This document shows, in pieces, positions 6,127-14,323 of a DNA stretch of 32,079 nt (its first letter is position 1; each line of letters opens with the position of its first letter). The notes beneath the pieces are model-generated. The model made no database searches. It was not told the DNA's origin and saw nothing but the letters and a program-made list of their open reading frames with translations. This DNA comes from an uncultured Bacteroidales bacterium (GTDB lineage: Bacteria > Bacteroidota > Bacteroidia > Bacteroidales > P3): the NCBI GenBank assembly GCA_900315935.1, contig ONBB01000024.1, forward strand, positions 1 to 32,079, given 5' to 3'. The translations under genes and the position numbers were made by a program.

Positions 6127-6253
6127 GGAATCTTTGAAACTTCGACACTTTCAAATTTCCTCCCAGGGGAAGGCAACGGCGCTCCCGCCTTTTTAGGCGT
6201 GGGCTTTATCGTTGTAATTGGGAGGAAGGGTAGTCGAAGACCTCAAAGATTCC
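6127..6253 (+). ncRNA. Rod-shaped structured RNA A (candidate novel family)
   Basis: The segment folds into one long interrupted hairpin. GGAATCTTTGA (6127-6137) pairs with TCAAAGATTCC (6243-6253). CTTCGAC (6140-6146) pairs with GTCGAAG (6233-6239). TTCCTCCCA (6157-6165) pairs with TGGGAGGAA (6219-6227). CAACG (6174-6178) pairs with CGTTG (6210-6214). CCC/GGG and GCC/GGC close the tip around 6184-6203. Internal loops between the stems match those of the RNA at 11416-11585 ('TGAAA', 'CACTTTCA', 'AGGG', 'CCT'). It lies about 100 bp before the VWA-barrel gene. No good promoter is seen directly upstream. The strand is assigned from the shared motif, because the other copy follows a plus-strand promoter. 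Confidence 0.6.
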
Positions 6254-6318
6254 GATGACGGCGAAGAATAAGTGCCACGCTCTTTTTATGTGCATATTCC
6301 TTTCAAATGTAGGCACGT

Positions 6319-6351: not shown

Positions 6352-8094
6352 ATGAGAAACAGATTATCCTCTGCCATTTTTGGCATTCTGCTGTGTGCAA
6401 CCATGCTGTCCACATCGAAAGTGGCCGCCCAGGCCGAGCATTCACTTTACCACATTGATGGTTCATACAAAATGATTTATGATGAAGCTTCGCAAAGCTA
6501 TCGTTACCACCTGACAGATATCACAGACACTGGTGTTGTCATTCAGTACACAGATGGTATCAATAGGTTAGAAGGAAAAGTTGACCCGGAGTCCGAATCT
6601 ATAGAATTTATCTTCGATACGATCCATTCTAATGTCGGCTACAAAAACATCCGCTTTTGGAAATGGCAACCCGACAACAATGATCGCTACTACTGGCAGG
6701 AAGATGCGGAGGTGCGTCAGCCAGTGAATCAACGACGCCGCGACATGGCTCAGGTGGTGATACTGGTTATGGACTGCAGCGAATCCATGAGAAAAAGTGG
6801 CAACTTCAAGCCCATGAAAAAGATGGTTGAAGAGGTAGTAAACCGCTATGCCAGTGCTGTGTCTGGCAATATCCATCTCGGCATCGTGGCCTTCAGCACC
6901 GTACAAGAGGCCCGCAATAACATTTATCCCATAACGCCATTGACACCTGAGGTGGCAAAGGACATTAAGGACAATTTTCTGAAGAACTTAAATACTTACA
7001 ATAACACAGCTCTCTACTTTGCCATGGATACCGCGTCTATTCTTGTGGACAATTACATTAAGAATCTGCAGTTACCAGAAAACATCAAATTTTCTGGCGC
7101 AATGATGACCTGCTTTACCGATGGTTTCGATAATCATTCCATCCTTAAGGGGCATGTATACAAGCATGGTCTTGAAAATCCCTATTTGATTCATCTAGAG
7201 GGGAATGTCGTCAAAGGGCACCGCCTCACCTACACACACGCAAATGGCAAAAAAGATTGTCATGACTTGCAAGTGTACACCATCGCTTACCAAGACGAAG
7301 ATGCCGATGTATCGAGCAATATTTTTATGGCGGTCAACCGAAAACTCAATTCGGATGGCAAGCCTAGAGTTGCCAAGAACTTTGGCGAGGTTAATGACAT
7401 GTTCCAAAGCATCGCCAGAGATCTAGTTGAGCGTTTCCAGCAACTGCGCTGTTTTGTTCCTCGGGCATTTGAGGGACGTGTCCGATGGACTTTTGACAAT
7501 TCCAATATTAATCCTCGTGGGTTCTTCGGCTTTAGCGTAGGAGCCAATGCTGAATTCAACTTGCCGACAAGCGTGGCAAATCCCTACTTTGGATTTGGTG
7601 GTGGTGTGGGAATTGATTTCGCCTTTCCCAGAAGGGACTTTTCGGCCGATGGCGGATTTCTCAACTTTAAGTACACATTCTCTACCTCCGATCCTGCAAT
7701 ACACTTCTCATTCGGCTACCAACACCTTGGCAAACGACACCAGTTTGAACGCAAACTCCTTTGGGGTGTCGGTTTGGATGTCCGAAGTTCTCTGGGATCA
7801 GAGTTCAACATCAAAAATAAGTCGCTTAATTCGCAGCGCACTCAGTATAGCAAATCATATGACTGTGCAGACGAAATGGGGGTCGGTGCCGTCTTTAGGT
7901 TGGGCTCCATCGGTCCCAAGCACCTCTATTACTATTTTGACCTCACTGCCGGCGTCTACCGAATGGGACGTTATACCGAAACATATCAATGGAACACCAG
8001 GCATGGAGGGTATTGGTCATGCATAAACGAAACTTCAAAGAGTATGACCGCACTCTATTTCAATCTTTCGTTTAATTTGGGATACAAGTTCTAG
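6352..8094 (+). CDS. VWA-domain protein with probable C-terminal outer-membrane beta-barrel
   Basis: 580 residues with a signal peptide (1 to about 27, ending VAAQA), so the protein is exported. After an N-terminal region of about 110 residues comes a von Willebrand factor A domain (about 134-360). It has an intact metal-ion-dependent adhesion site: D141-C-S143-E-S145, a Thr near 219 and D257 in 'CFTDGFD'. From about 375 to the C-terminal Phe the sequence alternates aromatic/hydrophobic and polar residues, with Gly-rich turns ('FGFGGGVGIDF', 'HFSFGYQHLG', 'NLSFNLGYKF'). This is typical of a transmembrane beta-barrel ending in F. The barrel is my inference. The gene is clearly AT-richer than its neighbours and stands alone, which fits recent acquisition. 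It follows structured RNA A. Substrate or partner is unknown. Confidence 0.8.
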   Translation: MRNRLSSAIFGILLCATMLSTSKVAAQAEHSLYHIDGSYKMIYDEASQSYRYHLTDITDTGVVIQYTDGINRLEGKVDPESESIEFIFDTIHSNVGYKNIRFWKWQPDNNDRYYWQEDAEVRQPVNQRRRDMAQVVILVMDCSESMRKSGNFKPMKKMVEEVVNRYASAVSGNIHLGIVAFSTVQEARNNIYPITPLTPEVAKDIKDNFLKNLNTYNNTALYFAMDTASILVDNYIKNLQLPENIKFSGAMMTCFTDGFDNHSILKGHVYKHGLENPYLIHLEGNVVKGHRLTYTHANGKKDCHDLQVYTIAYQDEDADVSSNIFMAVNRKLNSDGKPRVAKNFGEVNDMFQSIARDLVERFQQLRCFVPRAFEGRVRWTFDNSNINPRGFFGFSVGANAEFNLPTSVANPYFGFGGGVGIDFAFPRRDFSADGGFLNFKYTFSTSDPAIHFSFGYQHLGKRHQFERKLLWGVGLDVRSSLGSEFNIKNKSLNSQRTQYSKSYDCADEMGVGAVFRLGSIGPKHLYYYFDLTAGVYRMGRYTETYQWNTRHGGYWSCINETSKSMTALYFNLSFNLGYKF

Positions 8095-10823: not shown

Positions 10824-11258
10824 TTATTTCCCCGTATGGCCGAAGCCGCCGGTGCCGCGCTCGGTGTCGGTGAGTTCCTCGGCTTGGACGATTTCGGCCT
10901 GCTCGTGGCGGGCGATGACCATCTGGGCGATGCGCTCGCCGTCGCCTATGATGAAATCCTCCTGCGAGAGGTTAATCAGTATCACGCAGATTTCGCCGCG
11001 GTAGTCGGCGTCGATGGTACCGGGGCTGTTGAGGACCGTGATGCCCTTCTTCAGCGCTAGGCCGCTGCGCGGGCGCACCTGGGCCTCGTAGCCCGCCGGC
11101 AACTCCATGAAGAGACCCGTCTTCACGAGTCCTCTCTCCATCGGCTTCAACGTAATCGGCCCCTCGGGCAGGAAGGCCCGCAAATCCATCCCCGCCGACT
11201 GCGCCGTCTCATATTTCGGTAGCGGGTGATGGCTCTTGTTTACAAATTTTACTTGCAT
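10824..11258 (-). CDS. dut: dUTP diphosphatase
   Basis: 144 residues from the ATG at 11258, the usual size for a trimeric dUTPase. All five motifs are present: AGMDLRA (22-28), RPRSGLALK (62-70), '[13 protein letters not shown]' (about 77-89, with the catalytic Asp), 'GERIAQMV', and the C-terminal '[10 protein letters not shown]' that closes over the substrate. It hydrolyses dUTP to dUMP, which keeps uracil out of DNA and feeds dTMP synthesis. The frame stays open to an upstream ATG at 11282, but the candidate -7 box at 11293-11300 would leave almost no leader for it, so 11258 is preferred. It is probably the first gene of the 8240-11258 operon. Confidence 0.95.
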
Positions 11259-11292
11259 ATTTTTCGTACCAATATCAATCATTATTGGGTTG

Positions 11293-11300
11293 CAAAAATA
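11293..11300 (-). promoter_or_regulatory. -7 box for dut
   Basis: The minus strand reads TATTTTTG (TAnnTTTG), about 35 bp before the chosen ATG. No clear TTTG at -33. It is divergent from the promoter at 11331-11361. Confidence 0.5.
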
Positions 11301-11330
11301 CGCAATTTCTGCGACATGGTAAAAATAATT

Positions 11331-11361
11331 TTTGCCAGTTTGAAAAAAGGTTGTATCTTTG
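11331..11361 (+). promoter_or_regulatory. Bacteroidota-type promoter for structured RNA B and the radical SAM gene
   Basis: TTTG at 11331-11334 and TATCTTTG at 11354-11361 are separated by 19 bp. The context 'AAAAAAGGTTGTATCTTTGCACC' (11343-11365 region) is almost the same as at the tRNA promoter, which suggests a strong promoter. Confidence 0.85.
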
Positions 11362-11365
11362 CACC

Positions 11366-11585
11366 GTCTTTCAACAGGAAGAAAGACCGAGAGAAAGCGC
11401 GTTTTCTCTATTCCGCTATCGGTGAAACTTGGACACTTTCACGAAGGAATTAAGTCGGAATAAGGCAAAATGACTTCTTACTTGTGTTGTATACCATTGC
11501 TATCGGTACACGCCAAGTGGAGTTACATCAGCAAGACCTTATCTACTTAATTCCGAATTAAAGGGAGTCCAAGCCCTACCGATAG
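11366..11585 (+). ncRNA. Structured RNA B: two 5' hairpins plus a long rod (candidate novel family)
   Basis: It starts where transcription from the promoter at 11331-11361 should begin. Two small hairpins come first: GTCTTTC/GAAAGAC (11366-11387) and AGAGAAA/TTTCTCT (11390-11409). A rod follows. CTATCGGT (11416-11423) pairs with ACCGATAG (11578-11585). CTTGGAC (11428-11434) pairs with GTCCAAG (11567-11573). GGAATTAAGT (11446-11455) pairs with ACTTAATTCC (11545-11554). ATAAGG (11460-11465) pairs with CCTTAT (11537-11542). An inner arm (CTTG..TACC with GGTACACGCCAAG) lies near 11481-11518. The core loops match RNA A. It could be a free small RNA (the rod is reminiscent of 6S RNA) or the leader of the radical SAM gene 75 bp downstream. 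Confidence 0.6.
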
Positions 11586-11660
11586 AGATTAGGGGAATGG
11601 ATGGCTCCACTTTCTTCGTATGAAAATAATGTATAAAAAAAAACAAATGTATACAACAAG

Positions 11661-12803
11661 ATGAACAGTAACTTGGCAACAAAAAAGTTTCGCACTAATA
11701 GGATGTGTTCCTTGATGGTTACACATGCATGTAATTTGAATTGTGTCTATTGTTTTGAGAAGTTCAAGACAAGCAAAATGATGACGTTTGAGACTGCCCA
11801 AAACATATTGAAAAAAGAGTTTGACGACTATCCCAAGATACAGACAGAAGGTAGCCGAATGGGGATAGATTTTATGGGGGGAGAGCCGTTGATTAACTTC
11901 GATGTAATAAAACGGGTTTATGAATGGACAAAATCTTTAAACTTGCCGTTCAATATTGTCTTTTCGGTTACGACCAATGGGACGTTGCTTGACACGGAGA
12001 AACAAGAGTGGTTTGCGCAAAATGCAAAAGATTTCCGTTTGGTTATGTCCGTAGATGGAAACGAGTATAGCCAGGTGGCAAACCGCGGTGTCTCAACAAA
12101 TACCTTGCCACTTGAATTCATCCGAGACACATGGCCAAACTCTTATTTCAAACAGACACTGACGCACGATACGTTACCCTACTATGCAGCGGGAGTCATA
12201 GCATTGAACGAACATGGTTTCCGTGTGGCCTCCTCTCTTGCACAGGGGCATACCTGGGCCGATGACGACGACAAAACGTATCGCGAGCAACTGAAGGCGC
12301 TAGGGCAGTACTACATAGACCATCCCGACATCCCTCTTTCAACCCCATTCGACATGATGTACATCCAGTTGCTTGACGAAAACATCTCACGGCCTCCCCG
12401 AAAGAATTGCGGAACAGGCACGGGCATTCATTTCTATGATGTAGACGGGAAGATGTATCCTTGCCACCTCTTTTTGCCGATGGTACATGGAAATCCCAAT
12501 GTGTTGGAAGAAATAAAAGACGTTGACTTTTGCAATGACATCGCTCTTATTGATAATGATTGTATTAATTGTCCAATATTGCGGGTATGCGCTACCTGTT
12601 ATGGATTCAATTATATGAAACGCCAATGCGTGGCGAAACGGGACAAAAGTATGTGCAAACTCTATCTTGCACAGGCGCAAGAAATATCGTCGTTCCAGAT
12701 ACGCTATTTCACATCTATCGACCGAAAACTAACCACTAATGAACTGCTTACACTCCAATCTGCGATGCGATGCTATGAACTTGTAGAAAACATAAGCATG
12801 TAA
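11661..12803 (+). CDS. Radical SAM/SPASM peptide maturase
   Basis: 380 residues. The radical SAM cluster is held by C24-x3-C28-x2-C31 (CNLNCVYC), followed by the SAM-binding 'GGEP' (73-76). The C-terminal SPASM-type region has C250-x12-G263-x4-C268, then C301-x2-C304-x5-C310-x2-C313, C323 and C332. This can ligate two auxiliary [4Fe-4S] clusters, as in enzymes that form thioether or C-C crosslinks in ribosomal peptides. There is no separate RRE domain that I can see. The gene is AT-rich compared with its flanks and follows structured RNA B. A 44-residue Cys-rich peptide gene begins 60 bp downstream and the unit ends in a strong terminator, so that peptide is the likely substrate. No exporter or protease gene is adjacent. 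An anaerobic sulfatase-maturase role is possible but less likely, since no sulfatase is nearby. Confidence 0.85.
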   Translation: MNSNLATKKFRTNRMCSLMVTHACNLNCVYCFEKFKTSKMMTFETAQNILKKEFDDYPKIQTEGSRMGIDFMGGEPLINFDVIKRVYEWTKSLNLPFNIVFSVTTNGTLLDTEKQEWFAQNAKDFRLVMSVDGNEYSQVANRGVSTNTLPLEFIRDTWPNSYFKQTLTHDTLPYYAAGVIALNEHGFRVASSLAQGHTWADDDDKTYREQLKALGQYYIDHPDIPLSTPFDMMYIQLLDENISRPPRKNCGTGTGIHFYDVDGKMYPCHLFLPMVHGNPNVLEEIKDVDFCNDIALIDNDCINCPILRVCATCYGFNYMKRQCVAKRDKSMCKLYLAQAQEISSFQIRYFTSIDRKLTTNELLTLQSAMRCYELVENISM

Positions 12804-12862
12804 GAACAGGAGGAAGCCGAAAATCCTTAAAAAGAGTAGGTATAATTTAAAAATTAATAATT

Positions 12863-12997
12863 ATGGCTGAGTATTTGAAAAAAGCCCAGGACATGATTGC
12901 CCAAAACTCGTCCGAGATTGCAGCCGAATCGGCAAGGATTTCAAGTATTGGATGCTCTATGTGCGGTTTGGGTTGCTCCGGCATTGTTGGCGACTGA
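12863..12997 (+). CDS. Cys-rich RiPP precursor peptide candidate
   Basis: 44 residues. The N-terminal part (1 to about 27) is charged and predicted helical (begins MAEYLKKAQDMIAQ), as expected for a leader. The C-terminal part is 'SSIGCSMCGLGCSGIVGD', with Cys31, Cys34 and Cys38 in a Gly/Ser-rich setting, as expected for a modified core. It lies directly after the radical SAM/SPASM gene and 20 bp before an intrinsic terminator, so the two genes form one unit. The ATG is preceded by an A/T-rich leader typical of Bacteroidota. Modification type (thioether as in sactipeptides/ranthipeptides, or other) is inference. I do not recognise the family. Missing nearby: transporter, leader peptidase, immunity gene. 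Confidence 0.75.
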   Translation: MAEYLKKAQDMIAQNSSEIAAESARISSIGCSMCGLGCSGIVGD

Positions 12998-13016
12998 TAA
13001 GTCGTTCTCAATGCAG

Positions 13017-13045
13017 AAAAGGATGCTTGCTAGCATCCTTTTTTT
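13017..13045 (+). terminator. Terminator of the radical SAM/peptide unit
   Basis: GGATGCT (13021-13027) pairs with AGCATCC (13032-13038), extended by A-T pairs, and is followed by seven T residues (13039-13045). Confidence 0.9.
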
Positions 13046-13054
13046 ATGGGTAGT

Positions 13055-13098
13055 TCCTACTCAACACCCATGTAACGCCTAGATGAATCCTAATGGGG
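13055..13098. repeat. Degenerate 11-bp tandem repeat, left copy
   Basis: Four 11-bp units start at 13055, 13066, 13077 and 13088 (TCCTACTCAAC, ACCCATGTAAC, GCCTAGATGAA, TCCTAATGGGG). They resemble the array at 14541-14617, and like that array they are followed by sequence matching the clpP 3' end. Confidence 0.75.
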
Positions 13099-13127
13099 CG
13101 GGGAGAAGGGAGGGGCAGGGGGGGGGG

Positions 13128-13200
13128 ACTTCTTGGTGAGCAGCTCGTCGATCATGCTGTAGGCGAGGGCCATCTCGGCGATGTGCTTGCCGTCAGATTC
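13128..13200 (-). pseudogene. Remnant of a clpP 3' end
   Basis: Read on the minus strand it encodes 'ALAYSMIDELLTKK', against 'ALAYGMIDEVLTKK' at the end of the intact clpP at 14699. Upstream 'KESDGKHIAEM' aligns loosely with 'KDSDRDHWFTAQE'. The clpP stop codon is lost. The match ends where the ATPase coding sequence ends (about 13193). It is a leftover of duplication, not a functional gene. Confidence 0.8.
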
Positions 13201-14323
13201 CTTTGACAAAATCTTGATAATTGTCGGGATTGACGACTGTAAAGGTGTGGTCGGGATAGTTCTTGGCAAAGGTGTCGGTCAGGCGGGGCTGCTTGGTGCC
13301 ACTCCATTTGAACTCGTAGGCATGCAGTACTCCGTCATAGTCCTCAATATAGTCGACCTCTTGTTGCTGCTGTGTGCGCCAAAAATAACTCTTGCCATAG
13401 AAGTTGGTATAGGCATTGTGTTTCATCCGTTCGCTGATGATATAGTTCTCCCACAGGGCGCCCGTGTCCGTTCGGAGAGCCAACGGCTTATAGTCTCCGA
13501 TTAAGGCGTTTCGCACCCCATTGTCGTAGAAGTAAATTTTGCGGCTTTTCTTCAACTCGGAGCGCACATTGCGGCTGAACGACCGCAGATGGAAAACCAC
13601 ATACGATTTCTCCAGCAGGTCGATGTAGCGTTGCACTGTGATGGAATTCAATCCCAGTAGCCGCCCCAGCTCGTTGAAAGACACCTCGCTACCGACCTGC
13701 AAGGCCAGTGCCTGCAGCAACTGTTCGATGATTTCGGGTTTGCGCACGTCTTGGAACGAAAAGATGTCTTTGTAGAGATAACTGCTCACGAGGCTCGTCA
13801 GGGTTTCACGCTCTTCGCCAGGCAGGTTGACCACTTCAGGGTATGAGCCATATATCAATCTGCGCTCCAGCAGTCTGCGCTCTTCCTGCATGCTGTTTTC
13901 GAGGATTAGCTCCTCGGCGGAGAACGGGAAGAGTACGTACTCATACTTACGACCTGTCAGAGGTTCGTTGATTGAGTTGGAAAGTTCGATTGCCGAAGAC
14001 CCGGTTACCACCACCTGCTTTTCGGGGTAGTTGTCAATCAACAGTTTCAAGGTGATGCCGATATTCTGTATGCGTTGAGCCTCGTCGATGAACACTATAT
14101 CATATCCTGCAGTTTCGGCGCCCAGCATGGTAGAGGTGGGGTCGGTGAGTTTGCGGCGCACATCGGGCTCGTCGCAGTTCCACACAAGTACCTTGCTATT
14201 ATAATCTGTTGCCAACATCTTTAGCAGCGTAGTCTTGCCGACCTGTCGTGGCCCCACAACAATAATAGCCTTTCCTCTAAAGAATCTTTGTTTAATTGTA
14301 TTAGAAATCAGTCGATTAATCAT
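13193..14323 (-). CDS. AAA-family ATPase with DUF4143 domain
   Basis: 376 residues. The N-terminal AAA_14-type ATPase has Walker A 'GPRQVGKTT' (about 24-32), Walker B 'DIVFIDEAQR' and 'VVTGSSA' (sensor-like). The C-terminal DUF4143 half contains a winged-helix-like part ('ELGRLLGLNSITVQRYIDLLEKSYVV') and a nuclease-fold-like end ('GALWENYIISE', 'QQEVDYIEDYDGVLHAYEFKW'). These proteins are common, highly variable accessory genes in Bacteroidota and their cellular role is not established. The gene sits between two copies of an 11-bp array plus clpP tail, so it probably arrived by insertion or unequal recombination. Its composition is AT-richer than clpP. Confidence 0.9.
   Translation of the reverse strand: MINRLISNTIKQRFFRGKAIIVVGPRQVGKTTLLKMLATDYNSKVLVWNCDEPDVRRKLTDPTSTMLGAETAGYDIVFIDEAQRIQNIGITLKLLIDNYPEKQVVVTGSSAIELSNSINEPLTGRKYEYVLFPFSAEELILENSMQEERRLLERRLIYGSYPEVVNLPGEERETLTSLVSSYLYKDIFSFQDVRKPEIIEQLLQALALQVGSEVSFNELGRLLGLNSITVQRYIDLLEKSYVVFHLRSFSRNVRSELKKSRKIYFYDNGVRNALIGDYKPLALRTDTGALWENYIISERMKHNAYTNFYGKSYFWRTQQQQEVDYIEDYDGVLHAYEFKWSGTKQPRLTDTFAKNYPDHTFTVVNPDNYQDFVKGI

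Follow-up and report, generated by a model that had tools for sequence, protein, structure and literature searches.

SPASM enzymes perform sactionine, thioether, C-C/cyclophane and epimerisation chemistries, and their motif comprises seven auxiliary-cluster cysteines arranged as C-x9-15-G-x4-C, C-x2-C-x5-C-x3-C and a last C. SCIFF/CteB is a small enzyme-peptide pairing. CteB has been named a ranthipeptide maturase in the literature. One study describes PapB as joining Cys to Asp/Glu in C-x3-D/E (PMC9413430). In a second study, radical SAM genes alone are the commonest RiPP areas in 1,136 surveyed Bacteroidales genomes (858 of 1,340), and PCAT transporters occur in seven of nine chosen Bacteroidales RiPP clusters together with GG-motif precursors (PMC10352776). 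HMP2_1881, a candidate of 108 bp mentioned in a survey of human-microbiome RNAs, is located near radical SAM genes (PMC8040213).

Here we analyse a locus in a 32,079-nucleotide stretch of DNA from an uncultured, gut-type Bacteroidales bacterium; the whole stretch is called the window (contig C4; the assembly has 31 contigs totalling 2,294,010 bases). Sequence comparisons indicate that one radical enzyme and one short Cys-rich peptide evolve together as an unnamed unit, accompanied in the window by two RNA elements.

Organization of the locus

The unit lies between a dUTPase gene (10824-11282) and an AAA/DUF4143 ATPase gene (13193-14323), both on the opposite strand, and has the following features:

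11354-11361, forward strand: -7 element TATCTTTG of the Bacteroidota type (TAnnTTTG), by sequence reading
11362-11622, forward strand: leader RNA (modelled core 11415-11589, 3' tag 11598-11616), multi-copy and covarying, with no Rfam match
11661-12803, forward strand: radical SAM/SPASM maturase of 380 aa, from Pfam PF04055, NCBIfam profiles, PDB profile and fold matches and a predicted model
12807-12842, forward strand: DUF805b RNA (RF02914), stem plus pseudoknot, the stem from the Rfam score and the pseudoknot from covariation in this analysis
12863-12997, forward strand: putative precursor peptide of 44 aa with the core C-x2-C-x3-C-x3-V-G-D, from conservation, codon pattern and motif rarity
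13015-13044, forward strand: intrinsic terminator, hairpin plus U run, from folding energy

An earlier note on this DNA had described an AT-rich unit in which a radical SAM enzyme with CNLNCVYC and SPASM cysteines is followed by a 44-codon Cys-containing frame and a terminator, and in which transporter, protease and immunity genes are lacking. This description holds. The enzyme frame is intact and its seven auxiliary cysteines are invariant, the small frame and the terminator are both read downstream of it, the GC content is 38-49% across 11501-13000 compared with up to 70% elsewhere in the window, and no transporter, protease or immunity gene was seen between the two flanking genes. The terminator hairpin folds with -16.5 kcal/mol (z -3.6); it is absent from the pattern-scanner output for 13015-13044. 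The structured RNA that the note placed upstream of the enzyme likewise folds, better than 200 of 200 shuffles (z -4.6), and what had been missed is that it is one of several copies in the genome and belongs to a multi-copy family. The DUF805b RNA between the enzyme and peptide genes (50.4 bits, gathering threshold 35.6) had also been overlooked.

Elsewhere in the window, two neighbouring frames at 11-745 and 781-2301 consist largely of HDT(V/T/L) repeats and have a sorting-like end at the C-terminus.

The radical SAM/SPASM enzyme

The enzyme scored 39.0 bits against Pfam PF04055 (Radical_SAM; cut-off 29.5), which places it in the radical SAM superfamily. C24, C28 and C31 are invariant across six enzyme homologues, as are C250, C268, C301, C304, C310, C313 and C332; the latter seven correspond to the SPASM motif, with the fourth spacing being x2, not x3. 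An NCBIfam scan returned 69 matching models, and the enzyme is below the cut-off of all of the best 25, on which our figures rest. The best profile was PapB (NF047865; 123.3 bits versus 340), followed by the CXXX-repeat maturase (TIGR04115; 109.7 versus 350), and the SCIFF maturase TIGR03974 gave 88.2 bits versus 425. Scores for the nif11-type, sactipeptide (RumMC) and cyclophane (YhhB) maturase profiles were significant and below their cut-offs. For all nine relatives scanned, the PapB or the CXXX-repeat profile was the best. Membership of the window enzyme in the PapB, CXXX-repeat or SCIFF families is ruled out by these sub-threshold scores, and the profile comparisons indicate an enzyme that is related to all three groups of maturases and a member of none.

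The top PDB entry retrieved with a six-homologue profile was 5WGG (E 9.7e-36), which we take to be CteB. The same entry was the top Foldseek match of the predicted enzyme structure (E 1.5e-15, TM-score 0.64 on the query), a model with a mean pLDDT of 76.7 and values near 50 in the SPASM half. The model opens directly at the radical SAM core, without an N-terminal RRE-like domain, and its C-terminus consists of two helices (residues 330-352 and 359-375) that may form a leader-binding site.

The 44-residue peptide

The peptide has cysteines at positions 31, 34 and 38 (C-x2-C-x3-C) and matched no NCBIfam or Pfam family, in agreement with the earlier note, which could not place it in a known precursor family. 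A profile of the peptides of the window, L014 and G032 was run, independently of the enzyme, against the 393 order genomes. Its four top genomes (G000, G538, G330 and G293; E 7e-24, 7e-10, 1.5e-8 and 0.0012), of which G000 is the window's own and matches by construction, are also the four best genomes of an enzyme search of the same size, and the peptide adjoins the enzyme in each. The list at E up to 0.1 comprised 32 genomes, and the peptide matches in the other 28 were weak, at 0.005 or worse.

Across six loci and nine peptides, four of them tandem copies in G032, the core C-x2-C-x2/3-C-x3-V-G is invariant, the spacing to the third Cys being x2 or x3. All DNA gathered contained 4317 frames of 30-70 aa; the C-terminal core motif occurred in 26 of them, all of which are copies of the six loci. 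When the last six core codons were compared in the 15 pairs of six peptides and the counts added up, base differences at the three codon positions numbered 9, 14 and 64 (64 of 87 at third positions), and codon differences were 57 synonymous versus 10 non-synonymous. Three nearly identical tandem copies in G032 are alone no proof of constraint (copies b and c differ by 3 non-synonymous and 4 synonymous changes). Coding selection on the small frame was one of two checks that the earlier note had proposed. The other, small Cys frames beside homologous enzymes, also came out in its favour: an adjacent small frame with CxxCx2-4C was found at 13 of 18 enzyme loci (window included) versus 0 of 147 control genes.

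By these comparisons the 44-codon frame is a real gene, and enzyme and peptide show the co-conservation of precursor and maturase that characterizes a RiPP unit. A precursor behind its enzyme had been thought unusual; this order is normal for the family, the peptide gene being 3' of the enzyme in five of the six loci and 5' of it in G538.

Distribution and the wider enzyme clade

Counting the own genome each time, the enzyme was found in 8 of 190 family genomes at E <= 1e-30, in 7 of 393 order genomes at 1e-60 (three-sequence profile) and in 3 of 326 phylum genomes at 1e-70 (six-sequence profile). Since few genomes carry it at any of these scales, its distribution is sporadic. A nucleotide-pattern scan of GTDB genomes returned one locus, L014, which is 57% identical. 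Viral contigs contained 34 relatives, including a nearly full-length one at 37% identity (L202) whose contig ends right behind the enzyme, and a phage-labelled record carries a relative at 36% with a Cys-rich frame of different pattern beside it; no match to the peptide was found in phage records.

Five of the 18 enzyme loci fail the strict CxxCx2-4C rule. In L017, L139 and L142 the Cys-rich frame follows a different pattern, in L141 the frame is zinc-ribbon-like, and no small Cys frame worth trusting was found beside the L016 enzyme. CXXX-like repeat cores occur in L018, L140, L184 and L185, and L019-L021 have a CWGG-type core ahead of two radical SAM genes. Because the cores differ so widely within the clade, the substrate seems to change and the pairing to persist; with such different Cys-rich cores adjoining the wider-clade enzymes, substrate rules do not transfer from one to another.

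In L016 and L142, the enzyme relatives lie amid GTPase/ATPase and peptidase-like genes resembling conflict-system modules (named by eye). A Phocaeicola massiliensis plasmid record (L237) holds an HTH gene, a TM-zinc-ribbon gene, a radical SAM gene and a CGCSGDCGSNW peptide. It also contains another peptide similar to this one and a long frame that is aminopeptidase-like by eye.

The leader RNA

Partial copies of 11362-11622 occur in its own genome, and the 3' tag TGGAWGGCTCCACTTTCTT of this stretch (at most one mismatch) was detected in 57 of 149 family genomes, compared with none for the reversed control pattern. Our set of 37 tag loci consists of L018, six further copies from the window's own genome, and a single locus for each of the 30 genomes listed first. 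The -7 element TAnnTTTG lies 211-247 nt upstream of the tag at 36 of the 37 loci and 129 nt upstream in L165, and the frame behind the leader starts with a signal or lipoprotein peptide at 29 of the 37 (by eye). With L165 dropped for having no helix anchors, the closing helix was at least 7 bp long in 35 of 36 loci, whereas swapped pairs reached this length in 9.4% of cases. For the inner helix P5, 34 of 36 loci gave at least 8 bp, as did 55% of swapped pairs.

Alignment A9 holds 31 of these 36 loci, the near copies L153, L157, L163, L166 and L172 being excluded. The model based on the 31 copies (R1) gave the window 98 bits, found 8 copies in the genome, one of them weak at 31.7 bits, and matched in 11 of 324 order genomes from 8 genera, own genome included. 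On alignments that were fitted to the model, the covariation score was 0.412 for 35 copies (36 of the 37 tag loci, L157 left out, of which all except L165 matched), with shuffles at 0.204 +- 0.009; for 45 copies it was 0.482, with shuffles at 0.202 +- 0.009 and slid structures at no more than 0.109, and both sides had changed in 31 of 39 pairs. A further leader selection left out L039, L148, L150, L153, L157, L158, L163, L165, L166 and L172, with the window replacing L170.

No leader match was found in Rfam 15, with the whole window at gathering threshold or with 11250-13100 and five relatives at E up to 1, and the open-access literature gave nothing useful on leader RNAs of this kind. As far as these two sources were searched, the family looks undescribed, and the leader offers what is apparently a new Bacteroidales regulatory RNA that can be tested.

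One of 30 tag loci, the window itself, has a radical SAM motif in the 1.5 kb downstream. A wider model, R2, whose training set held the window and L018 and not L136 or L237, recognised these four among 21 enzyme loci (L136 at 2e-7, L237 at 3e-4), with L019 marginal (0.08). At E up to 0.01, R2 gave 5 rows, three of which are training sequences, in the 202 kb of the 21 enzyme loci, versus 3 rows in 37 of 69 DUF805b loci (195 kb), so that no clear enrichment at enzyme loci is seen. A RiPP-specific leader is ruled out by these observations. Since R2 also matches DUF805b loci, the RNA is a general leader that is used by some RiPP units. In G034 (L158), promoter and leader together share 88% identity with those of the window across 311 bases and have a different gene behind them; no other match to the 4.1 kb of window compared was found there. 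With identity confined to this part, it is as if the leader moves as a cassette. The L014 leader is similar by eye (helices CAATTCGA/TCGAATTG, CTTCGCA/TGCGAAG and AGGGTCAAA/TTTGACCCT); it was found by neither R1 nor R2 and hence is not counted.

A second, shorter leader copy in the window (6127-6255, forward strand) scored 24 bits with R1 (E 0.001 in 179 kb) and 43 bits with R2, though it is part of the R2 training set, and is missing from the genome-wide R1 list. The frame behind it, 6352-8094, encodes a VWA-domain protein whose start is signal-like. Leader copies in L136 (6064-6192, reverse strand), L237 (906-1032, forward strand), L192 and L194 stand ahead of a small XRE-like HTH gene (by eye), and in L136 and L237 a radical SAM gene and a Cys-rich peptide lie downstream of the leader and the HTH gene.

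The leader may function as an attenuator. The RNA would then begin just past TAnnTTTG, and the leader strand GUGGAGC would pair with the upstream GCUCC inside a rod or, alternatively, with the 3' tail GCUCCAC running into a U-rich stretch, in which case 3' ends are expected after GGCUCCACUUUCUU. A middle-tail helix of at least 6 bp can be drawn in 31 of 31 common-tail copies and in 11 of 14 divergent ones, where three are unscorable and the best helix of L195 is not the expected one. Since 77% of swapped pairs also reach 6 bp, a leader switch between alternative pairings is only suggested by the aligned copies.

The DUF805b RNA

The DUF805b RNA begins three bases past the enzyme stop codon and ends (Rfam end) 20 nt ahead of the peptide ATG. 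Within the six loci it separates enzyme and peptide genes in the window and L014 only; the other four show none. Of 189 family genomes, 134 have it at E <= 0.001 and 101 have it above the cut-off. The sites that we examined were the best-scoring ones, not a random sample. Behind two sets of 30 and 44 such sites, 39 of the 74 frames are lipoprotein- or secreted-protein-like by eye, which rules out a RiPP-specific element; the remainder are other frames, often short, some of them precursor-like.

TAnnTTTG lies within 60 nt upstream of 26 of 77 elements versus 1 of 77 background stretches. For 60 of the 77 elements the distance to the first ATG is 18-28 nt. By that measure the window's distance is 21, and this usual spacing lends independent support to 12863 as the real start. 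In 74 of 79 elements, compared with 41 expected if the two positions were independent, the base before loop CC is the Watson-Crick partner of the base that follows GUAGG, and all four pair kinds are present, indicating by covariation that the RNA has a pseudoknot beyond the stem shown in Rfam.

The 1.5 kb downstream contained a radical SAM motif for 10 of 72 elements versus 13 of 441 control points (Fisher p 4e-4, with control points that overlap one another and elements that are the best-scoring). Such a motif was present upstream of 7 of 72, six of these in housekeeping-type radical SAM genes (by eye). Most of the ten (L040, L041, L048, L051, L053, L055, L059, L060, L066 and L080) lead Cys-containing, precursor-like frames. 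Given this excess of downstream radical SAM motifs, DUF805b may flag precursor genes skipped by annotation. The open-access literature yielded nothing useful on DUF805 RNA.

In L040, L048 and L053, DUF805b leads short peptides ending in NGPCDMCWGDLSL, followed by a radical SAM gene, and these form another candidate precursor family; the L053 peptide, the one of the three that was scanned, had no NCBIfam match. DUF805b-led peptides of the type MKKxFxxAKVxATN..MSWSCAPN precede a radical SAM gene in L041 and L055, and L055 additionally has the leader RNA farther upstream.

Proposed maturation and alternative explanations

The enzyme and the peptide probably form a two-gene RiPP unit in which the SPASM maturase modifies the 44-residue precursor by thioether (ranthipeptide-type) cross-linking. 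That the peptide is the enzyme's substrate, as the earlier note proposed, is supported by co-conservation and coding selection; the cross-link is suggested by family resemblance only. One transcript would open with the long structured leader RNA and then encode the maturase, the DUF805b RNA and the precursor. Lacking an RRE domain, the maturase would bind the precursor at its helical N-terminal half and, using a 5'-deoxyadenosyl radical and two auxiliary clusters, would form thioethers between core Cys sulphurs and residues nearby. The leading candidate acceptor, in analogy to C-x3-D/E in PapB, is the invariant Val four residues past the last Cys (C-x3-V; Cys38 to Val42). Export and leader removal, if any, would depend on genes elsewhere. 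Since the nearest relatives are ranthipeptide maturases, thioether cross-linking is likely, and since the enzyme is far below the family cut-offs, the thioether may be of the alpha type or not.

It is also conceivable, though unlikely, that the peptide is the substrate of a different modification, i.e. a sactionine (alpha-carbon) bond, a C-C/cyclophane link or epimerisation. The significant nif11-type, RumMC and YhhB scores, though under their cut-offs, would fit such a chemistry. However, the best profile, PapB, is that of a ranthipeptide maturase, as is the best PDB match by sequence and fold, 5WGG, taken to be CteB, and the three invariant cysteines of the peptide point to sulphur chemistry. 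We consider it quite improbable that the CxxCxxxC tail belongs to a metal- or [Fe-S]-binding metallopeptide that is matured or partnered by the enzyme and not cross-linked: its third-Cys spacing varies between x2 and x3, which is poor for a fixed cluster site, and the short Gly/Ser-rich core and the four tandem G032 copies look like RiPP precursors, even if the motif resembles cluster-binding motifs and the lack of a linked transporter or protease would suit an intracellular product. Short frames are common in this region, where 61 of at least 20 aa overlap 11000-14000, and a chance frame beside an enzyme with another substrate might be suspected on that account; this idea is contradicted by the codon pattern, the rarity of the motif and the co-occurrence with the enzyme, and we reject it as scarcely credible.

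Thioether maturation of the precursor can be combined with the attenuator into a more ambitious proposal, in which the leader would represent an undescribed Bacteroidales class of cis-regulatory attenuators that in each genome govern several genes for secreted proteins along with a few RiPP operons, and the maturase would make a new C-x3-V thioether. We offer this combination tentatively, judging that it has a somewhat greater chance of failing than of holding. If true, the cell envelope and an unnamed RiPP family that has no transporter would belong to one regulon.

Comparison with known systems

The open-access literature searched held nothing on similar precursors. With PapB-type maturases (NF047865; freyrasin) the unit has in common a SPASM enzyme, for which PapB is the best profile, and an adjacent Cys-containing precursor. 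It differs in that the precursor has only three cysteines and C-x3-V-G, without C-x3-D/E (the residues four past each Cys are Gly, Cys and Val), and in an enzyme score of 123.3 versus 340. The CXXX-repeat family (TIGR04115 enzyme, TIGR04114 repeat) supplies the second-best profile, whereas the window peptide has no CXXX repeat and no TIGR04114 match. The likeness to this family resides in the wider clade, where L018, L139, L140, L184 and L185 lie beside Cys-repeat frames, three of which gave weak TIGR04114 scores (12-14.5 bits versus 20). SCIFF/CteB (TIGR03974; 5WGG) is the best PDB relative by sequence profile and fold; in contrast to SCIFF, with six Cys in 45 residues, the window peptide has three, and the enzyme has no N-terminal RRE region. 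Unlike the surveyed PCAT/GG-motif clusters, the unit has neither a PCAT transporter nor a GG-motif precursor.

The two RNAs compare in a similar way with known elements. Like other cis elements, the leader RNA sits in the 5' leader of mRNAs. The DUF805b RNA of the window keeps the usual distance to the ATG, but lies between two genes of one unit, whereas typical DUF805b RNAs are mostly in 5' UTRs.

We conclude that the unit is real and, within the libraries searched, new as a family, although its kind, the radical SAM RiPP, is already known. Compared with the systems above, it would add to the radical SAM peptide toolbox a compact enzyme-substrate pair with a core of ~14 residues and without an RRE, and it raises a bench-testable question, C-x3-V as a thioether.
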